This document shows positions 7,701-29,015 of a stretch of DNA of 30,085 bases, in pieces. The translations under genes were made by a program, and so were the position numbers. Source of the stretch: Saccoglossus kowalevskii. Taxonomy: Eukaryota > Hemichordata > Enteropneusta > Harrimaniidae. Within the stretch, counting starts at the first letter, position 1; every line of letters starts with the position of its first letter. The stretch lies in assembly GCF_000003605.2 (NCBI RefSeq), contig NW_003156747.1:60552-90636 (forward strand), in the 5' to 3' direction. Under the pieces are notes generated by a model. The model ran no database searches. It was not told where the DNA came from and worked only from the letters and a program-made list of their open reading frames with translations.

Positions 7701-10700
7701 GGAAAAGTTGAAGTGCACCTGTTATTAAAAATTATGATTTTAGCAGTTATGCACATATATTTATTTTAATTTATGCAAATAATCAAATTAATAATCATTT
7801 TAGAACTGACTTAGTAAATACACTGTGCATTATTGCATATTGAGACACAATCTTGTTACTTCCTTACTGCAATGAAAGACAGACCTGCCCAGGTATTGTG
7901 ACGACACTTATCATTTGCATGCATTAATATACGGTATATCCACACATTGTTTTCTAAATTTTGATAATTGAAATCATAATTTTAAGCCATTTTGGATGAG
8001 ATTTTGGATTAAAATTAGGTAAATAGTTTTGAAATTATAACAACTTTGTACTTAAGTGTATAACACTCAAATTTGATCAACATGTAAGTGGCTTCCTACT
8101 TTTACAGAGTGTGCAGACTATTTGATGTTAAATCCATTCAGCATCCGAATATTTCCCGCAAAAAATTTAGTGCCACATTTTGCCTGTTTTAAAGCATTCA
8201 CTATTAGCTATGGGTTTTGGCCAACATTTAAAAAAAAAAAATAAAAAAAAAAAGTGAAAATGTTACATTTTATTCTGTTAACAAAAGTGTTGGTGTGCAA
8301 TGGTTTAATATCTCCAGTAGAATGATTATGCACATAATTTGGAAGGTTTTAGTGTTGAAGTGTAAAATTGAACTTTGACCCCTCTGAATAGTAGATAAGC
8401 TGTTGAATTGATAAGGCTATCATACCAAAGGTTTTTATCTTGTTGATACTGTTATAGTCATCTGGTAAATGTAAAAATTATATTTTGAAAAATGTTTTAA
8501 CAACAATAATAATGTCATACAGGAGAACTATTATTTAAAAAAATATACATTTGGAGAAAATATAAATAAAAGAAATCTTACTTTTTCCTCTGGGTATTTT
8601 TCAGTAAAATATGTAGGTAGCCAAGAAAATAAGAGAAAAAATGTATAATTTAAACAGAAATGTCCAAGCACCATTGCCCTGTAATTACAAAAATAAAGTG
8701 TCAGTGATTGAAAGAATATATCAGGAAAAGTTTACTACTACAGTACTTCCCCAAGTATAAGCCCCTCCACGAGTATAAGCCCATTCCTCTGTTTTTGGAC
8801 ATTTAACGAGTTGAGGGCATCCCTGAGTATAGGCCCAGGGTGATTTAACTGGGTGTCGACGAAATTTATTAAGATATACATATGCATGCAAAATTGTATT
8901 TCATTGCATAAAAATAGGCCATTGGCCTGTTGCTCAACGGCTATTGTACAAAAGATTAGTGCTGTATATGACAAATACCACGCCAAAATTAGGAAATTGA
9001 AAATTTCCTTAACAAATTAACAAAACTGATAGAGTAGTATAGAAGAAATTTTAGAGTTTTGGGGGGTTCATTTGCATAATTTTTGGCAGATCGACTTCTC
9101 ATGAACAAATTACCATCTACACTCATCAAGGCATCCACACACCAAAAATCGAGTCAAACGGTTAGGCGGTTTTTGAAAGAAGTCGTGCACAGACAGACAG
9201 ACGGACGACAGGCGCAGGACAGAAAATCATAATTGGTAAGGTAGTTTGATTCCAGATTTCATAGTGCATGGCGGGCGAACGTACGGAACATAGATCACAC
9301 TGTTTCTATTCTATTTACTCAGGATGAACCTCAATGTTGCAATACTGAAATAATCCATATTTCTTCTTTCTAGTAGTAGTAGTACGGTAGTAGTTTTCCA
9401 AATGGCAAAAATGTGATTGTCAAGTCGTGAAACCTGATCACTGAACATAGTTTTACTTTTCCGAATAATCTTGTCCATTGAGCCTATCGTGAATGGGGTG
9501 TGAACGAGCAAACTATTTTTCAACATGACTTAATGGCGACCATGAAAGGTTTAAATACTTCACTCACCCACCGAAAATTGCAAATGAACAGCTTTTAGTG
9601 GAAAAAATCACTGTTTTTTTTGTCGAAATCAGTGTTAACAGATCGCATTTTAACATCGCGGTAATTCACTTCGTCAATAATCAGAAAACTTCGTCTGTAT
9701 GACATTTTCATTGGTTAACGAAAGACGTGACCTGTTAGATCAAAGGAAGTTTTTCAGGTCAAATTATGATGAAACCATGGTGGCAGTAGTTTTGTATTGA
9801 GGGTTTGCATACAATCGAAAAGATTCCACAACGAAGATAATAATAAAGGTTCTTGCCTTCGACTGTTTTCCCACAGACTCACCCCATTTTTGCACCATAA
9901 ATTCAAACAGTATGTAAACTGTATTGTAATAAAAATGTGTGTATTTTTATGAACATGTTTGTTTCTTCATTGTAAAATATTTCGTTGAAATCAATGACAA
10001 CTGTTTTGCATTTTTTCCTCAAAAAGATGTAATATTCTTCCGAGGGCGGCGCTGTGAACAAAAAATGTAATTCGGATAATTTTTCGAGGTTGGAAAGATG
10101 GTTACAGTTTTAAACACACTAAAAAATTATTTTTTTCTGAGGTGGTTCTTGAGTATAAGCCCACCCCCTAATTTTCCTGATTTTTCATGTTCGGGCCCCT
10201 GGGCGTATACGCGGGGAAGTACGGTAGATATAACTAGATAAAATACATCACATGCAAATCTTGACTGGTTACACCCTCAAATGTCAGAAGCCAGGATACC
10301 TTGCTAAAGCTCTCCATGGTACACTAGAAGATGGTATTGACTTACCAGAAGCCAGGATGCCTTGCTAAACCTCTCCATGGTACACTAGAAGGTGGTATTG
10401 ACTTACCAGAAGCCAGGATGCCTTGCTAAAGCTCTCCATGGTACACTAGAAGATGGTATTGACTTACCAGAAGCCAGGATGCCTTGCTAAAGCTCTCTAT
10501 GGTACACTAGAAGGTGGTATTAACTTACCAGAAGCCAGGATACCTTTCTAAAGCTCTCCATGGTATACTAGAAGGTGGTATTGACTTACCAGAAGCCAGG
10601 ATGCCTTACTAAAGCTCTCCATGGTACACTAGAAGATGTATTGACTTACCAGAAGCCAGGATGCCTTGCTAATGCTCTCCATGGTACACTAGAAGATGGT

Positions 10701-13700
10701 ATTGACTTACCAGAAGCCAGGATGCCTTGCTATAACCTCTCCATGGTACACTAGAAGGTGATATTGACTTACCAGAGGCCAGGATACCTTGCTAAAACTC
10801 TCCATGGTACACTGGAAGATGGTAATGACTTACCAGAAGCCAGGATACCTTGCTAAACCTCTCCATGGTACACTAGAAGGTGGTATTGACTTATCAGAAG
10901 CCAGGATGCCTTGCTAAAGCTCTCCGTGGTACACTAGAAGGTGGTATTGACTTACCAGAAGCCAGGATACCTTTCTAAAGCTCTCTATGGTACACTAGAA
11001 GGTGGTATTGACTTACCAGAAGCCAGGATGCCTTGCTAAAGCTCTCCATGGTACACTAGAAGGTGATAATGTATCTGAATGGTTGAGAACATCTTCAGGT
11101 GTTTTTATAATTCCATTATAAAATAATCTAATATTTAATCTTTGTTTCATTAAATAAATTCTGACCATCAACGCCCATAATATTGCACACGTTCCAAATA
11201 TATAGAATACTCTATGCCAGTCATAATAAGATAAGACAATAGAACCAAGACTTCCTGATAATAAATTACTGTAAGAAAATAACATAATATGAGCAGAATA
11301 TAATCGAGCGGAGCTATGTCACGGAACGTTCTACGTGGCTAAGATGTGCACCACTGTACCATGCATTTCCAGCGATGCTATGGAACACTGGTTGCTGTAC
11401 ACTGATAGAAATGTTATTTATAAAGATGTAATAAAACAATATTATTATGGTTTGAAGAGCCAATGAAAATAGATGCAAACAGCTTAAGTCGAGGAAACAG
11501 CAAAAACTCAACTTTGTAGTAATATTGAGCAACCAAATTTGACTTCTGTGGTAAAATTTATATATGTTGCACACATAGGGGTAATCTTGTTATACTTTTT
11601 AGGGGAGTCTTCACAACTATCCCAAAATACAGATTTCTGAGAGTTTTCAGACGTGATAGTAGCCAGGCAGTGAAAATGCTCAGATGACCACCCGAGACAT
11701 GCTTAAAGTTCATAATTTTTTTTAATAATGTTTGTAATGAGCAATAATTGAAGACATTACAAGACATAAGATATATTTCATGCTTGGTATGTAATAGGAC
11801 TCAGTCAGTCATATAGTAGTTATGTCAGTGTGAATACAAGCTAAGCTTGCAACAAACATGGGTTTGGCATTTGGCAGCAGGCCGGTATGTGATGTACTGT
11901 AAAATCTGTATTAGAAGCCGCAGATTCTATTAAAATGGTACATTACAACATATGAGAAATGGTGAATTTTTGGGTCTCAATTGTTCAAAAAGAATGGGTG
12001 CAGCTTCCATCAGGGATGCAGCTTTTAATGCAGATTTTATGGTAGTAAGCATGAGAATATCACAAGAATATGTACTGCTAAGTATACACAAGGCATTACT
12101 GGTAACAGTGATTGTATTGGTCAATGCAATCCCACACTGCCTGAGTGCATACTTTACGCTATTCTCATGCCATTATCATACAAAGTCATGTTTTCCAAAA
12201 TGTTTTTTATGATAAATTTATGATAAATTCAGAGGTACATTATTTGGGGATTGCAAGTAGCGTGACATGATATCAAGATCTTGCTTCAATCACGCTCTCA
12301 CATAAGCGTTCCCAACTCAGAACAATGCGAATGCCCAAGGTAACTAGGATACTGGGAGGTCCAGGTGGATCAAAATAGCTGCTCACATTATGACGAATTA
12401 CAATCAATATATTTCCTATACATTTTCGATGTATTACATTTTTTCACTATTATAGTGGTAAGACATGTTTTGTTGTTTTATTGCAAACCTTGAACATTGA
12501 TACATGTCATGTCAGTGCTATGTGCATTGCAAAATTCTAATGTTTTCTGTGCAAGATATACAATGTATAACAATTATATAGTTACCTACCCAGCATAAGT
12601 CCCGGATATAACTGTTGTATATACATAGGATTTACAAGATTTGTCAACTTTTCTTCCCATTAGACTTGTCATGGACGGATAATGAAAAGCTACAAATTAA
12701 AATGAACCCAAATGTCACAAATTTGAATATTTAAACACAAAGGCAGCTAGCTGGTGTTATAGTAAGTAGTGGGTACAGTAGGATTTATTACAGTAGCTAT
12801 GGGAACATTATAGGCATGGATATATTTGGTATAGATACATGTATAGTAGATATGGATATAGTAGATACTGCGAGTGGTTAGTGCGAGTAGTACTAATCCG
12901 AAATAGTACTAGATCTAGTGGAAAAATGTACATAGTGCGAGAGACATTATTATGAATTGTCAAGACATTCCGTAATTATTGTCTGATAATAAATTAATGT
13001 TTATGCAAAATTGTTTTATCATTTATTCATTGGAAATGTGCTACAGTGAAAAAATTGAGAGTGTACATAATTTTCATTGCTATTCACTTTGTCTTTTGTT
13101 GTAATGAACTTTGGGAATACTAGGAAATTGCCATGTTTTCAAAATCGTGATCAACTGGGAAATCATATTTAGCTTTATTGACAGTGAAATTGTAGATTGA
13201 ACTTTGTAATTTTTACAGATTACGAACAGAGACAATTGTGGTTTCAATTATGGCATATGTACAAACTTGTATATAAGCTGTGGCATTGCTTTGATGAACT
13301 CAGGATTTATTTCCCCGCTGCATGTTGTCGTTTTTATTTGGACTTTTCGAGTCAGAAATAAAATAATTGCCCCCAAAATACTAGGGACTATAAATTAACT
13401 CTGTTCGTACTTAATTGTTTTGCATGTGTGTAGTTTGCATTTAAAAAGGGTTAGGATAACAATGCCACTCACACTGTGTATATTTTACCCTTAGATCTAG
13501 TGCAATTTCAGAATAGTTCTACTCACACTAACCACTAGCACTATGCCCATTTCAACACACATATATACATGTATTACAGAATGAAATAGACACTGCTATT
13601 TCTAGAAACCCTATGAATTCTGGGAGGTCAAAAACCCAATGAATTCTGGGAGGTCTAGAAACTCAATGAATTCTGTGACGTCTAGAAACCCAATGAATTT

Positions 13701-16006
13701 TAGGAGGTCTAGAAACTGAATGAACTCTCAATACAAATTAAATTAAATTAAAAAGGACAAAGAGTATACATACCTTGTAATGCACCGTAAATAACTCGAA
13801 GAAAAACTAAACATTTTAACTGTGATGATTTGTCTTCATACATGTATGCCAAATAAGGTGTTAATAAAGTAAGAGCTCCCCAACACATTGCAGCTAAAGT
13901 CACTATGTAATCACCGCCATATCTATCACTAATGTATCCAGATAATATCTGCGTCAGTGCATAACCCCAGAAAAATGAAGATAAAATTAAACCCTACAAA
14001 CAAAACAGAAATAAAATGGTAAGAAGATGGATTGGTCTGGCAATGAAAATTAACTTAAACATGTAGCATGTGATAATTACAACAATAAACATGCAAAAAT
14101 GTATAGCCATATTTCAAAACAAATATTTTCGCTTGGATTCAATTTTCGGTATTTTTGCTAAAGGAAGGATTCTGTGAAAATAAAATCCAGCGAATATACT
14201 TTTTTTCTATATTTTACATTCAATTTGTCAAAAAGTAATAAAAATATAAATTCCATACAAAAACACCCAAGAATTTTTTTTGGCAAAAATTAAATCTAGC
14301 TAAAATATAGTATTTTGTAGTAGCATTCTAAGACAAACAAGTTTATTAAAATAATGAATATTCACAGACATGCACCTGATCAGACAGGTAATTAATTATT
14401 TAAAAACTTCATTTAGTAAATATATACATTTATTTTTGTATTCTACTTTTTTTATACTTTATTACTACAACTTAAAGATGCAATATGAACAAATATATGT
14501 ATATTTTATATATTATATTGCTGTCTGATGTCTAGACTGGATCTGGGTATGATTATCATGAATTAATCGTAGGTCGGGCAAATCAAAAGTTACTTAAAAG
14601 TTAGCAATGAGAGAAAAAGGAAACACAACAATATTATTAATTATAAAATTCAAATATAATAATACACATGTGCCATGTTTGTACATACCAAAACAACCCG
14701 AGCATGTGTGTTTTCATGAATGTTAATAGTTCATCAAATGAAGACTCAAATGTGTACTACAAGAACAGCATTTCAGTTCACAATGAATCATAGTCCAATT
14801 TATTCACCAACACACATTATCAAATAACAATAATAATCAAAGAAAGATTAGAAAGAACTGTGTGCTGAGAGTATTGAAGACACATTAAAAATTAATTCAA
14901 AATTACTTGTACACGAGATATTGATGGAAAAGCTGAAAACTAATTATGTAAATCAGGTAATTAATATGAACAGAACAAAAAAATTATGAATTATTATGCT
15001 AATTAGAGAATTAATATGAACAAATTTTAACCCAAAATTAATCAGTCTATTGTCCTAGAGCATTTATGTAACAAATTTTATTCAAATGTGATGATCAGTA
15101 ATTGAGATATCAGTGTTAATTAATTATGTTAATTAGGTGATTAATAAGCATAAATATTTACCAAAAACTAATTGGGTCTCTGCATAGTTCTCTTTAAAAG
15201 TGTCATTAAAATTCAATTCGTGGTTCTTTATATATCAGTGGAAAATTATGCAAATTAGGTAATTAATATCCAATTAAAACCAATCAGGTCTCTGCATAGT
15301 CCTAGAAGATCTATGTAGCAAGTCTCATTGAAATATGATGATTAGTACTTGAGATATAAGGCAAAAAGCTGAAAAATTAATTATGCTAATAAGGTAATTA
15401 ATATGCACAAATATTTACCCAAAAACTAATCAGGGGTCTGCACAGTCCTTAAGTAACTATGACCTCTATGTACCAAATTTCATTGAAATGTGATGATTAC
15501 TACTTGAAATATCAAAAGCTGAAAATTAATTAATTAGGCAAATTAGGTAAATATTATATACTCGTATTACCCTAAAAACTATCAGGTTTGTGCAGTGTCC
15601 TATGATATCTATGTACCAAGTACTTGAGATATCAGTGGAAAAGCCGAAATCAATATTGCACAGATTTTTACCCAAAACTAATCAGATCTGCGCATTAGTT
15701 TGGAGCATCTATGTGTCAAGTGTCATCAAAATCTAATGAGTGGTTCTTTAGATATCAGTGGAACAGTAATGGAACAGCTAAAAATCAGCTTTTTTACCAA
15801 AACCTAATCAAATCTGCGCATTGGCCCAGAACATCTATGCACCAAGTTTCATCAAAAATCAATGTATGGTTCTTGAGATATCAGTGGAACAGACAGACAC
15901 ACACCTTTTTGTGCTTCGCAACACAGGAGTCAAAAATGACATATTCTCATACATATTGCATCTTTTTAAGATGGACTTATTATTCATTATGATGTGATAA
16001 AGATAA

Positions 16007-20977: not shown

Positions 20978-23900
20978 GTGAGTTTTAGTCCAATTTGTCA
21001 AACCCAAAATAGTCGCGGTTGGAGCGACGACGATTGGCAAGAGTTCCTTTTGTACATCCCTAACCCTAACACTCACTCCCAGTTACCCAATTCATTTGTA
21101 TATGCCCCCTCTAGATAACTATAGATGTCCTTAGGAGGGGCACGTACATTTAAATGGGGAGAGCTGGAGGGGAGGGCTAGGGTTAGTGATGGGGGGTGCA
21201 AAAGGAACTCTTTCACAGTGTAGCTAATATTACATTAAAACTTTTATTATATATGGAATATTGATCTGGAAAGTTTAAAGAAGTTTAACCTTTCCGGTAA
21301 CCTTCTCCCATTTTAATTGTATATGCCCCTCTTCAGAACACATAGATAGATAGATATTTTATTTGACAATAATAAATTTAGTAAGAATGAATGAATGAAT
21401 GAAAAAAACATACAATAAATCAATGATCAAGAAAAAAAAATATAGTTATACAATGTACATATACATGTAGTTATCAGGAGGAGCGTATACAATTACATTT
21501 GGAGAAACTTATCACCAGATTTCCTTGACTTTTAACCGTATGTTTTGTCTTTTGCTGTTGCTCGCAAAATGCAGACAAAAATGTATGGTCGCCAAACTAG
21601 TTGGTACTATTTTTGTACAAAAAAGTGTGTCAAACACCAAGGAAAATAGTGATTTTAAGGCATTTGCCATAGATTCTCATGGTAAAAATGTTATAAGTCT
21701 TATGTTTGTCCCAAATTATTTGGTGATTCTGATGAATACTATTAAATAATTCTTTAATACAAATTCTTATAGAAATAGTTCCAAAATATCCATTTTTTAG
21801 ACTGAGTAAAAATCCTTAAGTCAATGACTGATGTCTAAATATATAATTATGCAACACTTTTCAAACAAATAAATGTGATAATTAATTGCTTTGACCTTAA
21901 CAATAGTTGAAGTACTCGTTGATGTATTATCTGAAGTCTCGAACATATAAAATCCACCATGAATTGGAATCAGCAGTTACGCGATGTTTGCGAGTTATGC
22001 GTGTCAGAATCTGTTTGATGTTTTTTGTATGCTACTGAAAATTCACATACTACTTCATATTCCAAATGTACAAACAGGCATTGAAATATATAAATTTTTT
22101 CCCTGCATGCACAGTGTGCATGTTAAATTTGAAATTTACCTGCACTAACTTGTTGAGAAATGCACTACTTTTAAAGTTTAAATGAAATTTATGGTTTATC
22201 GATTGATGCGATCATGAAAGAATTTGCCTTTTTTAGTTGTCTTACAATGTTGGTTGAACATAATTTAGGCTTAGTGAATATGAGAAAATGTCGCGTTAAT
22301 TTCTACATGCACAGCGTGCACATTATATTTTGAGTTTACTTGCACTAGCTAATAATCTATGTGCATAGTGCAGTGTGCACCAGGGTATTTCGATCCCTGA
22401 CAACCAAATATATTGGATAATACAGCTTTAAAGAACTGTACAACCTTAAAGAACCGTACAGTATTAGAAAAAATAAATTCTGCAAGCACGCCGGAACCGT
22501 CGGACAAATATTTTATGCAGTGTCATACACACAGCTGTAGTCATTTAAATACATGTAGTATGTAAGTTACTGTAATTTATATATACCGGTAATATTTTTC
22601 TATTCATTTTTATTGATATTTGTTAAGAGATAAATATCACAATGGATAATAGAATCCTTTCAATACTCTGTTTCTTGAAATGCCATTCTGTGATTCTTGA
22701 ATTGAACAAAAGACTGTCCACTAAAGTGACCTAAACCAAGTCAAATCCGGATGATGAAAACCATGTGTGCTGATGTACCAGAATCTTATTTGAAATAGGA
22801 AACATGTACTTTCTACTACTGTGGAATACTTTATTTTCGCTTAGAATTAATTTTCGCTGAAGGAATGATTCAGTGAAAATAAAATCCATTGAATATACCC
22901 TTTTTCCTAAATTTTACATTCAACTTGACAAAAATCAGTGAAAATAAATTCCATACAAAACACCAAAAAGTCTTTTCAGCAAAATTAATTCTAGCTAAAA
23001 TAAGTATTTTGAAGTAATAAGGGGACGCCTTTTTGAAAATAGCATATTTTATTATTTACATTTATTTAATTCTAATCATGCTTACATGTATGTATTCATT
23101 AATTATTTTAATTATTATAATTAATTTTACCAAATGTTTTATTTTCATACAGACAAGAGCGTTGGATGTGGTCACTGGCTTTATTTCTGCTGAGTGTGTT
23201 TAATTATTGTTGTCGTAATGCAGCACCATTATCTGCTATATCAATGGAGCAAGAACTAGACTGGAATAAAGAGCAAACAGTAAGTATACATAACTCTTGT
23301 CAGTGAAAGCTGATTTGAATCGTATTTCTACTGTGACAATAATTGTATGGTTCTGTGAAAACAAATCTAAAAATCTAAAAACATCTCAGTGATATCACTA
23401 TTATTAAAACATAGAAAAACTTGATCACAGTAAATCATTCAATTATAGTGTGATAATTCACATACATGCAAGAAAGAAGAATGTGTTTACCAAAAAATAT
23501 ATGCAAGACTATCCAAAATGCGGACATTTTGGAACATTTTCCATAGGAATCCATGTAAACACATTATTCCATGGATAACTGGTACTAATTTTCGAAATTC
23601 ATTTTTTAGCATAGGTCACCGAACCAAATTTTGCGATATGATGGATTGTTTCTGCCATAGAAACCAATTGTAAACTATTCAAATAACACATTTTTGATCA
23701 TTTTTCAAAGTCGCTTTGTTGAAAAATTAGTCTGATGACCATATATTTTTAATTCAGAATTTTGAACATTACAGTAACCCAAGAAAACTACCTTAATATG
23801 ATATCTAGGAAGTACCGTATTTATCTGGGTAAGCACTCAGGGTCCTTAACATGGAAAATTGCCAAAAAATAGGGGTGGGCGTTTGCCAGGACATCCCCCT

Positions 23901-26900
23901 GCAAAAAAAAAACGAAAATCAGTGAAAATTGACAACACGCAGAACTGCGACAGGGAATAGAATGTCAAATGAAGACATGCAACGGAAATAAATGAACAAT
24001 ATGCAGCATTAGAAGAGTAACAAGAAATAATTTATTGCTTAGAATGTGACAAATAAACCAGAAATAATAAGAATCAACAATGAAGAATTATTTGAATTAG
24101 GATTTCTCTGCCGACAAACACGCCCAATACTCATGAACTCGTAATGAATTAAAGTGTCAGGGGTTAGTTAAACTGCATAAAATTATTTCTGGTTTTGACA
24201 AATACGGGATCAACAGCCATACATGTACAAGATCAATAATAATTTACGCAGTAAAATTACCAAAGTTCATTGTTGTTTGAAAAAAACCCATCTCAGATCT
24301 TTATTTGTACTTTCATTGTTATCTTCGTGAAAGTCAAAACCCTCAAAGTCCAAATCACTACTAGTGTTTCATCATAGAGGTCCAGTCAACATTGCTTTTT
24401 TATCAGACTAGGCGCTCATTAATCATGGTGAAAGTTACCATTCAGCTAGTTCCGGTGGTTGGAATGTCTCACTAATGTATATCGCAGTGGGCTTGAAAGA
24501 GGAAGAATTTTTTTCTCAAACGACAGAAGAATAATTTCCATGACAGAAATGCAACAGTTGTGATGAAAGAGGCAACAAAGTCAAAATTTTGACTTACCGT
24601 AGCATCTTGAAATATTGACATGTTATCTTGAAATTTTGATTTTGCTTTGTCGAAATTTTGAGATGTTAGGAAAAAATTTGGGATATTGTTTTTTTACACT
24701 TAAAATTTGGCGCTATGGGGCTTCCATAGAAGTATCCAGTCTGTAAAAGTTTTATCATTTATCAATGGAAATAAATGAAATTGTTGCGGAAGTACCGTAT
24801 TTACTTTATTAGAAGCACATTTTCAAAAAAAGAGAAATTATAAATCAAAAATAGCATTTATTATATTGTAGAGCATTGAAATGTGTTTTTATTTACATAT
24901 TAAGTGCATGCTCTAGTAGCAATAATAGGGTGAATATGGTAGTTCTTGGGTCACTGATGTGGTTGCATGACTGGGAAATAAAGATACATTAGATTCTTGA
25001 GTTAAATCTTAAATGCTTATGGTTTATGCAAAATCAACTCAATACAGTTTGGGGAAACAAGCAATCTCACTGCACCACACTTTATATCCACTACGGTAAC
25101 TCTTGAACTATTTGGACCCTGAAATTAAAATTATTTTAACTCATTATTTGCACACAAATATACTGCGCATACCAGCATATTGTGCTTGTAATTTATTAAA
25201 AAATAATAATTGAGGTCAGAACTAACGTTCTTTAAAATTCCACAGCAGGAGGGACTTGAGGGAATAATTAGAAATCCCTATTTTATTCTATATATGGTAG
25301 GAATTTATTCACAAGACCCCTAGCCTCCCAGAAAGAAGTTGTTCTAATAGACCCATAATTTTTCTTCAAGCCTTTAGACCCCTAAAACCAGTATGAGAGT
25401 AATTTTAGCCTTGAAATGCTTCTTAATTTAAGTTATATATTTTTGTTGGGTTTTGTGTTTGACAGTAAATTGCGATTTGTATTTTTCTGTGACCATATTG
25501 AGTTGATTATTAGGGGAGGAATACAAAAATAATGTTTTCAGACAATCTGAAGTTACCCGGTTTTTACCTATGTCCTTTTGATGTAATGTCTGTTACATAA
25601 ATATTTCTGATAACCCACAAGCTGTATGTCAAGCTAAAAATAATTTCTCTTGACATGAGAATAATGTCTGTGACATAAGCAAGTTTATAACACAGTTCTA
25701 AATTCCACAAGGTAATATTCTAGTAATAAAGGCAACTAAAATAACTTCCACATCCTCTGAATGTAACGTCCATCACTGTGGAATTGCCCAGCTGATTATT
25801 TGCAATAATAAAAATAATAAATTTATTTTGTTAAAATGTAATTTCAAAGGCTAGTATAGATAATACCTCAGAAAAAACACACACTGTGAAATAACTTATT
25901 TGCACTCTCATTTAATTTCACTAATTCTTAAAGTTCACTTTTACATGGTCATGTGAATTTAATTTAGTGGTTTTTACGTATCAGAGAAAATGGCGAAAGT
26001 AAATTTTGTTGAATATTTAATGTATTTACAGTAGTTTTCACTGAAAAATAGTTGCAGGTGATGGTTGTAGAAATGAGGGAGTGAGGATGCCATTTGTTTT
26101 CATATTTTTCCAAAATTTTGATCTTCATATAGTCTAAAATTATCAATTAATTTTTCAAAATATAAAAAATGTTGTTGCTCAAACATAGAAAATATTCAGT
26201 TAAAAATTATGCAGATCTTGGTGTGATTGCAAAGGTATTACCATGCAAAAAATTGAGAATTCTTAAAAATAATATTACAATGTGAAATAGTTTGATATTT
26301 AATTTTCTAGGGTTTGGTTCTGTCAAGTTTTTTCTGGGGTTACACAGCCACACAGATTCCTGCTGGATATTGTAGTGATTTATACGGTGGAAGTCAAGTA
26401 ATAACCATGGCAGCTATTGGATGGGGTACAATTACAATGTCATTACCAGGCTTTATCTATCTATTCCCAAATAAATCATCACAGTTATTAATGGTAGTTG
26501 TGCATAGGATAGTATTTGGTGCATTACAAGGTATGATCAGTGTATGATCTCATCAACATATGACTTCATTGGTGTATGACCTCATCATTAGTATGTATGA
26601 TGTCATCAATGTTTGACCTCATTGGTATGTATGATGTCATCAATGTTTTACCTCATTGGTATGTATGATGTCATCAATGGTTGACCTCATTAGTATGTAT
26701 GATGTCATCAATGTTTGACCTCATTAGTATATGATGTCATCAATGTTTGCATGACCTCATTAGTATATATGATGTCATCAATGTGTGCATGACCGCATTA
26801 GTATATATGATGTTATCAATGTTTGCATGACCTCATTGGTATGTATGATGTCATCAATGTTTGCATGACCTCATTGGTATGTATGATGTCATCAATGTTT

Positions 26901-29015
26901 GACCTCATTAGTATGTATGATGTCATCAATGTTTGACCTCATTAGTATATGATGTCATCAATGTTTGCATGACCTCATTAGTATATATGATGTCATCAAT
27001 GTTTGCATGACAGCATTAGTATATATGATGTTATCAATGTTTGCATGACCTCATTAGTATGTATGATGTCATCATTGTTTGCATGACCTCATTAGTATAT
27101 ATGTCAATGTTTGCATGACCTCATTAGTATGCATGATGTCAGCAATGTTTGCATGACCTCATTAGTATGCATGATGTCATCAATGTTTGACCTCATTAGT
27201 ATGCATGTTGTCATCAATGTTTGACCTCATTAGTATGCATGATGTCATCAATGTTTGACCTCATTATTATGTATGACCTTATCAGCATGTACTGCAAACA
27301 ATTTAATTTTTGCTACTATCGCCGGGTAGAAATTTTTGTAATTTTAGAATTATATGGCATTTGTGAAGACAAATTTACTCTGTGTTGTAATTTATTTTAT
27401 TACAATTTCACAATTCATAGATGTGTAATCTTTGCCGTGGATTGATTAGCATTTGCAGTGTTTTCGAAATTTGTTGGGTGCGATCAGATTTCTCATGGAA
27501 TTAACTTTAATTGTCATGCACTGCATTTGAATAAAACAATAAAATTGTGTTTAAATTCCGGAACATTTACAAATTGGGATTCATCATGTAACAATCAATG
27601 CACATAATGGATATTCAGTGTCAACAAACACAAAGGATATAAAAACATGCCTTAATTCACAGTTCCAAACAATGCCACTGTAATTTATAACATTACATAC
27701 ACTATGAAGACCATAATCATAACTTTGAAATCACAAAAGCTGTTAAATCAGAAATAATATAGATATATGATTTTTACAAAAACAAATTTGTGAAAACGAC
27801 AGGAGAATCATTCTTTAACCCAAGTTTAACAGTTTCTTGTCAGGTCATTAATCAGATGGACACTATTACCTGCATGTAGTCCTGATAGGATTATGATTGG
27901 TGTATGAAAAAAATCATATTTTAGTATGTTAAAAAAGTTTTTCCTTTCAATTGCTAAAATCAAGGGCTTCAAATTGACGAGAAAGACAAATAAGAAATCA
28001 TAAAATAAGGTTTCTTAGTTCTCTTATTTCTTCTGTTCATCCTTGGTTTGTTGATCCCCCGGTTGATCCATGTTCGATTAATTTGTCAGTTTATTGTATA
28101 TTTTGACAGCACTTCATTACCCAGCTTCTATTAGCTTATTAAGTACACGCGTTGATCCATTGAATAAATCTAAGGTATATTCTATGGTTTCATCAGGAAG
28201 TTCAACGGGGTAAGTAAAACTATCCATCTATGTATGAAAACAATGGAACAACTAAGTTTATCATATGACCATTTATGATATCTGTGCTGTCCTGTTTTTT
28301 TGCTGGTGGCAGCAATATTTTGCATGGCCCAGTTTTATTTTTTGATAAAAAAATTAAATAAATAAAAACAACAAAAAATAACAACAACATAGAGCACAAC
28401 TCCGAATTGAGAGATAACATTTATTTTTTGTAAATTCAATAATACAAACAAAAGAGACTTCAAATGTCAACCTGGACATAGAGGGCGCTACCACAGAAAA
28501 GTGAATTCACTAAAAACTTTATTTTAGCTGGAATCAATTTTCGTTGAAAAGGTTTTTTGGGTGTTTTGTATGAAATTTATTCTCACTGATTTTTAATGAG
28601 TTGTAAGTGAAATATAGAAAAAAAAGTATATTCACTTTGATGAAAATAAATTCCAAGCAGAAATAAAATATTCTACAGTACACAGTTTTAGGCTTACTTT
28701 ACACCACATGTAAATTGTGACTTTATCTGCATGTAACTCCACATATGTACATATTATAGACACACTCTTGACTCTATTTGTGTATTATTTCAGTGTACTT
28801 GTATCTGGTCTCATTGGTTCCTATCTACTCAGTAAATATAATTGGCATATAGTATTTTATTTCTTTGGATTCTGTTCTGTTACACTGGCAGTGTTCATCA
28901 GAAAAACTTTAATGAAAAAACATGCAGCTGTGCAGATAGAAATAGTAAAAAAAGGAAAGGAAAAGAAAAGAAAAGCGGTACCGTGGAGATTATGGTTTAA
29001 AAGTAAAGCTTTTTG
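20871..29015 (+). CDS. SLC17A9: SLC17A9-like vesicular nucleotide transporter, copy B (5' part, exons 1-5)
   Basis: Partial gene running off the right edge. Exons 20871-20977, 23153-23279, 26311-26530, 28110-28209 and 28794-29015 join in phase to 776 nt (258 residues plus two bases), with GT/AG ends throughout. Family blocks: DWNKEQT-GLVLSSFFWGY across exons 2/3, QIPAGYCSDLYGG, a TM4 arginine before FGALQ, LHYPASISLLSTRV, LVSGLIGSYLLSKYNWHIV and AVPWRLWFKSKAFW. The central loop is strongly basic (KKGKEKKRK). Exon lengths 2-4 and all phases equal those of copy A, so the two are inverted duplicates. TM7-TM12 (about 190 residues) must lie beyond 30085; I found no in-phase exon 6 between 29016 and 30085. 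The start ATG has A at -3 and G at +4. Role as for copy A, by family membership only. Confidence 0.9.
21037..21214. mobile_element. Long-palindrome MITE (copy B intron 1)
   Basis: The left arm GCAAGAGTTCCTTTTGTACA, then TCCCTAACCCTAACACTCAC, is mirrored by GGGTTAGTGATGGGGGGTGC and AAAAGGAACTCTTTC at the right. Arms are about 75 bp. Begins 60 bp after the exon 1 donor. The CCCTAACCCTAAC stretch resembles telomere repeats but is part of the arm. Confidence 0.8.
21297..21515. mobile_element. Second copy of the same MITE, split by a simple-repeat-rich insert
   Basis: TTAATTGTATATGCCCCTCT at 21315 repeats the left-arm phrase at 21093, and GGAGGAGCGTATACAATTAC at 21478 is its inverse. Between them lies GATAGATAGATATTTTATTT, AATGAATGAATGAATG and A-rich sequence, which looks like a retroelement tail inserted into the MITE. 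Confidence 0.6.
22100..22385 (+). repeat. Direct duplication with TGCACAGTGTGCA palindromes (copy B intron 1)
   Basis: GCATGCACAGTGTGCATGTT at 22105 and ACATGCACAGCGTGCACATT at 22303 head two related segments, each followed by TTTACTTGCACTA-type sequence. A third GTGCAGTGTGCAC lies at 22367. Role unknown. Confidence 0.5.
22817..23016. mobile_element. MITE family 'TATTTTCGCT', copy 3 (copy B intron 1)
   Basis: The left end TACTGTGGAATACTTTATTT is intact. The right end reversed, TACTTCAAAATACTTATTTT, is diverged. Inserted about 135 bp before the exon 2 acceptor of copy B. Confidence 0.85.
23153..23279 (+). CDS. SLC17A9: VNUT copy B exon 2 (TM1)
   Basis: 127 nt, residues 36-78, acceptor CATACAG, donor GTAAGT. 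Encodes RWMWSLALFLLSVFNYCC followed by RNAAPLSAISM and DWNKEQT. The TM1 arginine and the WNK motif match copy A at the same positions. Too short and too tightly bounded to show as a long open frame. Confidence 0.92.
23808..24803. mobile_element. Possible decayed element between GGAAGTACCGTATTTA direct repeats (copy B intron 2)
   Basis: The same 16 bp, GGAAGTACCGTATTTA, occur at 23808 and 24788, followed by TAAGCAC- and AGAAGCAC-like sequence. TACCGTATTT plus 'aagcgc/aagcac' is common at the ends of invertebrate repeats. No coding frame between. Could be two independent elements. Confidence 0.35.
24804..26310 (+). other. Copy B intron 2, remainder
   Basis: AT-rich intron. The open frame at 25964-26146 on the minus strand is not convincing. 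I see no further repeat. Confidence 0.5.
26311..26530 (+). CDS. SLC17A9: VNUT copy B exon 3 (TM2-TM4)
   Basis: 220 nt, residues 79-151 plus one base, acceptor TTTTCTAG. Encodes GLVLSSFFWGYTATQIPAGY, SDLYGG and HRIVFGALQ. The donor is GTATGA, weaker than the GTATGT of copy A, and the minisatellite of intron 3 starts directly with it. The frame stays open past the donor only briefly. Confidence 0.95.
26531..27285 (+). repeat. 34-38-bp minisatellite starting at the copy B intron 3 donor
   Basis: Roughly 20 copies of a unit of the form GACCTCATTAGTATGTATGA followed by TGTCATCAATGTTT, with an optional extra GCAT. The first, degenerate units begin with the donor GTATGATCAGTGTATGATC itself, so the array abuts exon 3. 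Most units contain ATGATGTCATCA, a near-palindrome resembling bZIP (CRE-like) sites, and GTATGT, a donor-like hexamer. Confidence 0.92.
27286..28109 (+). other. Copy B intron 3 downstream of the minisatellite
   Basis: No exon or recognised repeat until the acceptor at 28101-28109. The open frame at 27221-27445 starts in the repeat and has no family resemblance. Confidence 0.5.
28110..28209 (+). CDS. SLC17A9: VNUT copy B exon 4 (TM4-TM5)
   Basis: 100 nt, residues 152-184 plus two bases, acceptor TTTGACAG, donor GTAAGT after ACGGG. Encodes ALHYPASISLLSTRVDP and SKVYSMVSSGSSTG. Same length and phase as copy A exon 4. No long open frame covers it, so it was located by alignment to copy A and by its splice sites. 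Confidence 0.92.
28509..28680. mobile_element. MITE family 'TATTTTCGCT', copy 4, opposite orientation (copy B intron 4)
   Basis: The internal order is reversed relative to the others (GTTTTGTATGAAATTTATTC on the plus strand) and the right end is TTCTACAGTA. It ends about 113 bp before exon 5 of copy B. Confidence 0.75.
28794..29015 (+). CDS. SLC17A9: VNUT copy B exon 5 (TM5-TM6 and basic loop)
   Basis: 222 nt, residues 185-258 plus two bases, acceptor TTATTTCAG, donor GTATGT. Encodes VLVSGLIGSYLLSKYNW, TM6 with HIVFYFFGFCSVTLAVF, then a Lys-rich loop and VPWRLWFKSKAFW. The loop is ten residues shorter than in copy A and carries none of the exon-end repeats seen there. Confidence 0.93.

Follow-up and report, generated by a model that had tools for sequence, protein, structure and literature searches.

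The acorn worm Saccoglossus kowalevskii carries, in a gene for a predicted transporter, a minisatellite that repeats the end of an exon together with its splice donor. We analyzed it in a stretch of 30,085 nucleotides (contig NW_003156747.1, positions 60,552 to 90,636 of the forward strand; hereafter the window, whose numbering is used throughout), which contains two copies of the gene, A on the minus strand and B on the plus strand. In a PDB search, the joined exons 3, 5, 6 and 7 of copy A hit sialin (2.7e-19) and VGLUT2 (7.2e-17). The Pfam match is to MFS_1 (4.7e-12), and five NCBIfam transporter models match the protein far below their cut-offs. By its similarity to SLC17 proteins, the predicted product of copy A is an SLC17/MFS-like transporter. 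Exon 5 of copy A (11017–11268, minus strand, 252 nt) has the open frame NLLSGSLG...RHPGFW, with matches to sialin in the PDB and to MFS_1. It is followed by a GTAAGT donor at 11011–11016. Exon 6 (8582–8678, minus strand) begins after the acceptor TTTTTGTAATTACAG/GG. Splicing of 11017 to 8678 keeps the transporter frame and gives ...VPWRALARHPGFW-AMVLGHF..., which aligns with sialin without a gap at the exon 5/6 join. Copy B has exons near 23151, 26311 and 28798. Its exon 5 (28794–29015, plus strand, donor TTG/GTATGT) ends at the same codon and in the same phase as exon 5 of copy A. Exon 6 of copy B was not found; the 7 kb beyond the window end, downstream of its exon 5, consist of N.

It turned out that the end of copy A exon 5 is the first member of a tandem array far beyond chance. 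Tandem Repeats Finder (TRF) gives a single array at 10285–11065 with a period of 61, 12.8 copies, 92% matches and a score of 1350. We cut the array on the minus strand at CCTGGC[CT]TCTG and aligned the resulting units. This yielded unit 0, which is the end of exon 5, and 12 downstream units with lengths of 61, 61, 61, 61, 62, 61, 60, 61, 61, 61, 61 and 61 nt, in which 30 of 744 cells are variant. The original prediction, made from the letters of the window, had the 61-bp unit right and counted about 13 downstream repeats instead of 12. Over 49 nt (11065–11017), no base of unit 0 departs from the consensus of the downstream units; farther upstream, unit 0 diverges from it. The exon 5 end reads SSVPWRALARHPGFW and is followed by the intron start GTAAGTCAATAC, which also makes up the remaining 12 nt of the unit. 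Therefore, the unit consists of 49 nt of exon 5 end and 12 nt of intron. As in the amphioxus minisatellites called "mirages", it straddles an exon-intron boundary. The claim of a multiplied genuine donor and exon end was thus borne out, and homology supports the donor at 11017. The same prediction had taken all 22 nt between the donor and the next TTCTAG for intron, but only 12 nt (GTAAGTCAATAC) are intronic; CACCTTCTAG, which comes next, is copied from exon 5. A search of the genome with the array sequence found a single place, the window itself; the search ignores words that are very frequent, and the counts it gives are minimum values. No array follows exon 5 of copy B in the 1.07 kb of intron up to the window end. 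It could be argued that the assembly has the copy number wrong or has collapsed or expanded the array, since only one assembly is at hand and the mirage of the amphioxus globin gene BflGb6 is described as apparently mis-assembled in the draft (PMC3087553). The 12 units are told apart by two indels and by several variants private to single units, which is not what a simple assembly stutter would look like, and we regard such an artefact as most improbable.

The splice donor is preserved through almost the whole array. Exon 5 and units 1–11 are each followed by a junction site, and GTAAGT is present at 11 of these 12, as had been predicted. These are the donor of exon 5 itself, with its first intron base at 11016, and ten further donors on the minus strand within 10340–10955, whose first intron bases are 10955, 10833, 10772, 10710, 10649, 10589, 10528, 10467, 10406 and 10345. 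The broken site reads ATAAGT (first base 10894), and the last unit, unit 12, runs into ACATTT and has no donor. The splice signal is thus kept in many, not all, units, as in the amphioxus mirages. All ten downstream donors share the 9-mer CTG/GTAAGT and the score of the exon 5 donor, and the 11 donors together rank 14th among 3402 GT sites, counting ties. The scoring matrix is a rough one, built from eight homology-placed donors of both gene copies, the exon 5 donor at 11017 among them.

We joined every intact donor to exon 6 and translated the products. The frame stays open with the first donor. With any of the ten downstream donors, GTAAG is retained in the product, so that the Trp codon TGG is immediately followed by TAA, and none of them, used alone, keeps the frame open. 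Therefore, donor choice alone cannot lengthen the loop, and the loop-length isoforms that had been proposed to arise in this way are ruled out. Between this stop and the exon junction downstream of it there are 60 to 670 nt. At such a distance nonsense-mediated decay (NMD) is usual in mammals. The preservation of the donors could suggest selection. To judge it, we compared the donor block with circular blocks of columns of the array and found no significant excess of conservation. GTAAGT carries 1 change in 72 cells, and 23 of 62 circular six-column blocks carry as few; for the 9-mer CTGGTAAGT, the corresponding number is 8 of 62. The comparison gives no support to selection on the donor block. 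The same result bears on the idea that the donors bind U1 small nuclear ribonucleoprotein (snRNP) without being spliced and so shield the intron from premature cleavage and polyadenylation or strengthen the definition of exon 5. Eleven strong donors within about 0.7 kb would make a suitable platform for U1, but there is no sign of selection and no test that we ran lends support, which makes a decoy role very unlikely.

Each downstream unit also contains an acceptor-like TTCTAG or TTCCAG (first bases after AG from 10994 to 10323, minus strand), and the original prediction saw in the array a ladder of in-frame micro-exons that would insert variants of CVPWRALARHPGF into the cytosolic loop. Some of its details are correct. 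The stretch between TTCTAG or TTCCAG and the next junction is 39 nt, or 13 codons, and retains the phase in 11 of the 12 downstream units; unit 5, where a 1-nt insertion makes 40 nt and shifts the frame, had been overlooked. The single CAG at the acceptor-like end is in unit 4 (TTCCAG), and the two units with in-frame stops are 1 and 9. Seven of the 12 units combine 39 nt, an open frame and a donor, while units 1 and 9 (stop), 5 (length), and 2 and 12 (no donor) fail. Moreover, the homology-placed acceptor of copy B exon 3 also ends in TTTTCTAG, so TTCTAG by itself is no bar. The acceptor scores, however, argue strongly against the ladder. The TTCTAG and TTCCAG sites are copies of exon sequence, and the 13 of them (12 downstream and one in exon 5) score from -7.4 to 0.2. 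The eight homology-placed acceptors from which the rough matrix was built, that of copy B exon 3 included, score 12.4 to 19.1, or 3.1 to 15.8 under leave-one-out scoring. All 12 downstream sites fall far below them, and the best site in the array ranks 450th among the 2954 AG sites on both strands of the window. The number of pyrimidines in 16 positions is 9–10 at the acceptor-like sites versus 11–14 at the homology-placed acceptors, and no YTNAY branch motif was found in the consensus unit. In addition, the gap between adjacent units is only 22 nt. The pattern of changes in the 39-nt part was assessed in unit 0 and the 11 downstream units of that length (12 of 13 rows, without unit 5). Among ten distinct changes, eight are non-synonymous, one creates a stop and one is synonymous, so that nine alter or end the peptide; for comparison, 27 of the 117 single changes that are possible would be synonymous. 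Nothing in this pattern points to a constraint on the peptide. Scores, missing branch motif and changes together led us to reject the micro-exon ladder, to which we would give hardly any chance.

A different question is whether the downstream donors are used at all. If they were used to a measurable degree, the TGG-TAA transcripts would be degraded by NMD, and array length or the levels of U1 or SR proteins could tune the output of the transporter. The ten downstream donors with the 9-mer of exon 5, and the position of every stop upstream of an exon junction, speak for this possibility. A minisatellite with multiple splice donor sites in IFI6/6-16 was reportedly the subject of a paper by Turri et al. 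in 1995, to judge by its title. In human IFI6 (6-16, G1P3), the minisatellite supplies several splice donors, two downstream units are used and different isoforms are encoded (PMC4526556), so that use of repeat donors has a precedent. The locus studied here resembles IFI6 in that a minisatellite supplies multiple donors, predicted in our case from sequence, and differs in that the downstream donors would yield an immediate stop. The amphioxus mirages point the other way. They are described in Adh3, in the globin genes BflGb6 and BflGb9 and in troponin C, with similar repeats in PGBD5 (PMC3087553, PMC3902484). The Adh3 data and reverse transcription PCR (RT-PCR) of the globins suggest, as these papers present them, that regular splicing is undisturbed, and mirages with repeated splice signals reportedly give no aberrant mRNA, although the authors, in the globin paper as well, state that the repeated signals could serve as cryptic sites (PMC3087553, PMC3902484). 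The lack of a significant conservation excess in the donor block also argues against a tuning role. Unproductive use of the downstream donors to a measurable degree is thus rather unlikely in our opinion. A stronger version, in which only the first of eleven equal 5' splice sites is productive, array length sets the share of mRNA diverted to NMD and copy-number variation between animals tunes transporter expression, seems to us somewhat less likely still.

We consider it probable that the array is a mirage-type minisatellite and a neutral by-product, and that splicing of exon 5 continues to join 11017 to 8678, giving a normal transporter. The original prediction had named such a by-product as an alternative, and it is the best-supported reading. 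A stretch of 61 bp across the boundary of exon 5 and intron 5, with 49 nt on the exon side and 12 nt on the intron side, would have been duplicated in tandem into the intron, and the duplicate would have expanded by slippage or unequal exchange. The first donor would serve most transcripts, while the downstream donors would ride along as intron sequence. Occasional use of one of them would put TGG-TAA into the mRNA and result in a truncated or NMD-degraded product. The undisturbed splicing reported for amphioxus would, by analogy, fit neutrality, and so does the background of repeats. Minisatellites (period 15–300, at least 3 copies) are common: they occupy 1792 of the window's 30085 bases, and in five lettered stretches sampled from contigs above 80 kb (L003, L008, L009, L017, L022) the figure is 3259 of 32829 unmasked bases. 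Since blind placement at 6–10% coverage over 16 homology-placed splice sites predicts one or two hits, a single array on a splice junction is no surprise. The sample behind this estimate is small and was taken at contig ends or near the window. It comprised 21 stretches besides the window, the array locus and the mitochondrion; four of them are all N (L002, L007, L012, L013), and 12 lettered stretches from contigs under 80 kb were left out. With these 12 included, the figure becomes 82696 of 150466 bases. Their tandem-repeat share is 99–100% in seven, 74% in one, 22% in one and 0% in three.

Several points weigh against neutrality and regular use of the first donor. The use of this donor is itself predicted from sequence, and since all 11 intact donors have one 9-mer, strength alone gives the first no advantage. 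Splicing often favours the intron-proximal site when a 5' splice site has been duplicated and the copies are equal; for this locus, that would predict trouble. The preservation of 11 of 12 donors fits selection as well as recency, with the 9-mer block matched by 8 of 62. The use of repeat donors in IFI6/6-16 is a further point on this side (PMC4526556).

Other repeats and elements lie near the array. A degenerate array stands nearly at the donor of copy B exon 3, whose intron starts at 26531 (span 26531–27291). TRF rows run from 26541 to 27291 with periods of 16 to 38 and a higher-order period of 218. None of 1462 random 31-mers drawn from the window matches the array as well as the first 31 nt of this intron do. 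The degenerate array has several donor-like GTATGT sites and contains TTGGTATGT, the 9-mer of the copy B exon 5 donor, four times; it is a second donor-multiplying array at the locus. An exon part within it is not supported: the 31-mer over the exon 3 end scores 17, a level that 158 of the 1462 random 31-mers also reach. A transcript that reads through the exon 3 donor would reach a stop in the sixth codon, numbering from the split codon. Copy A intron 5 also contains, adjoining the 61-bp array, a block at 8738–10227 with 27-nt terminal inverted repeats that are 85% complementary, with 1436 nt between the arms; by eye, TA flanks are possible. In appearance it is a putative Tc1/mariner- or pogo-type DNA element. 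A 27-bp array of 4.8 copies (13601–13728) lies past the exon 3 donor of copy A, at a distance of 45 nt. Inspected by eye, the unit has TTCTAG and no copy of the exon end or donor.

Some of the seven near-pure repeat stretches of the genome sample (L006, L011, L016, L019, L020, L021, L023; 10 kb each) have long open frames that resemble repeat translations only. In the mitochondrial contig (17037 bp) as assembled, most other protein genes are encoded on the strand that does not carry COX1; this arrangement could reflect either a true inversion or the assembly. In COX1, ATA (9 codons) stands at positions where Ile is usual, and the single AAA where Lys is usual, a pattern that fits enteropneust hemichordates.

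The array most likely is a further, neutral example of a rare and already described kind of repeat, the splice-junction minisatellite, with a small chance that it tunes NMD. It is like the amphioxus mirages in its unit length, which is within the reported range (10–72 bp in Adh3), and in having AG/GT signals in many, not all, units (PMC3087553, PMC3902484). It differs in the gene, in belonging to a hemichordate and not a cephalochordate, in being known from the sequence of one assembly, and in its 11 donors, which exceed copy numbers quoted in those papers. Mirages are further characterised by a length that is unstable between alleles or in somatic tissue. Those of amphioxus are described as differing in copy number between alleles, and they have been proposed as a route to new introns (PMC3087553, PMC3902484). 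Intron gain by tandem duplication of AG/GT segments has been described (PMC4974935, PMC2809761; discussed in PMC3087553), and variable repeats at exon-intron boundaries in human segmental duplications are said to be able to form novel introns (PMC2812944). Here, too, the duplicated segment carries splice signals; unlike in those cases, no new intron is visible, and the intron that contains the copies is also present in the paralogue, at the same position and in the same phase. A literature search for splice-junction arrays in Saccoglossus and hemichordates gave PMC3902484 and PMC3087553 together with PMC8101967, PMC2772990 and PMC3188502; judged by title, none of the last three deals with this transporter gene.

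The finding extends splice-junction minisatellites from amphioxus and human IFI6 to an acorn worm, so genomes rich in minisatellites may harbour such arrays generally. With one 9-mer common to all intact donors and a productive outcome predicted for the first alone, the locus offers a clean natural experiment on how the spliceosome chooses among equal 5' splice sites. It also tests whether splice-junction arrays are raw material for new introns. Should the array indeed tune NMD, it would represent a functional mirage in an animal other than amphioxus.

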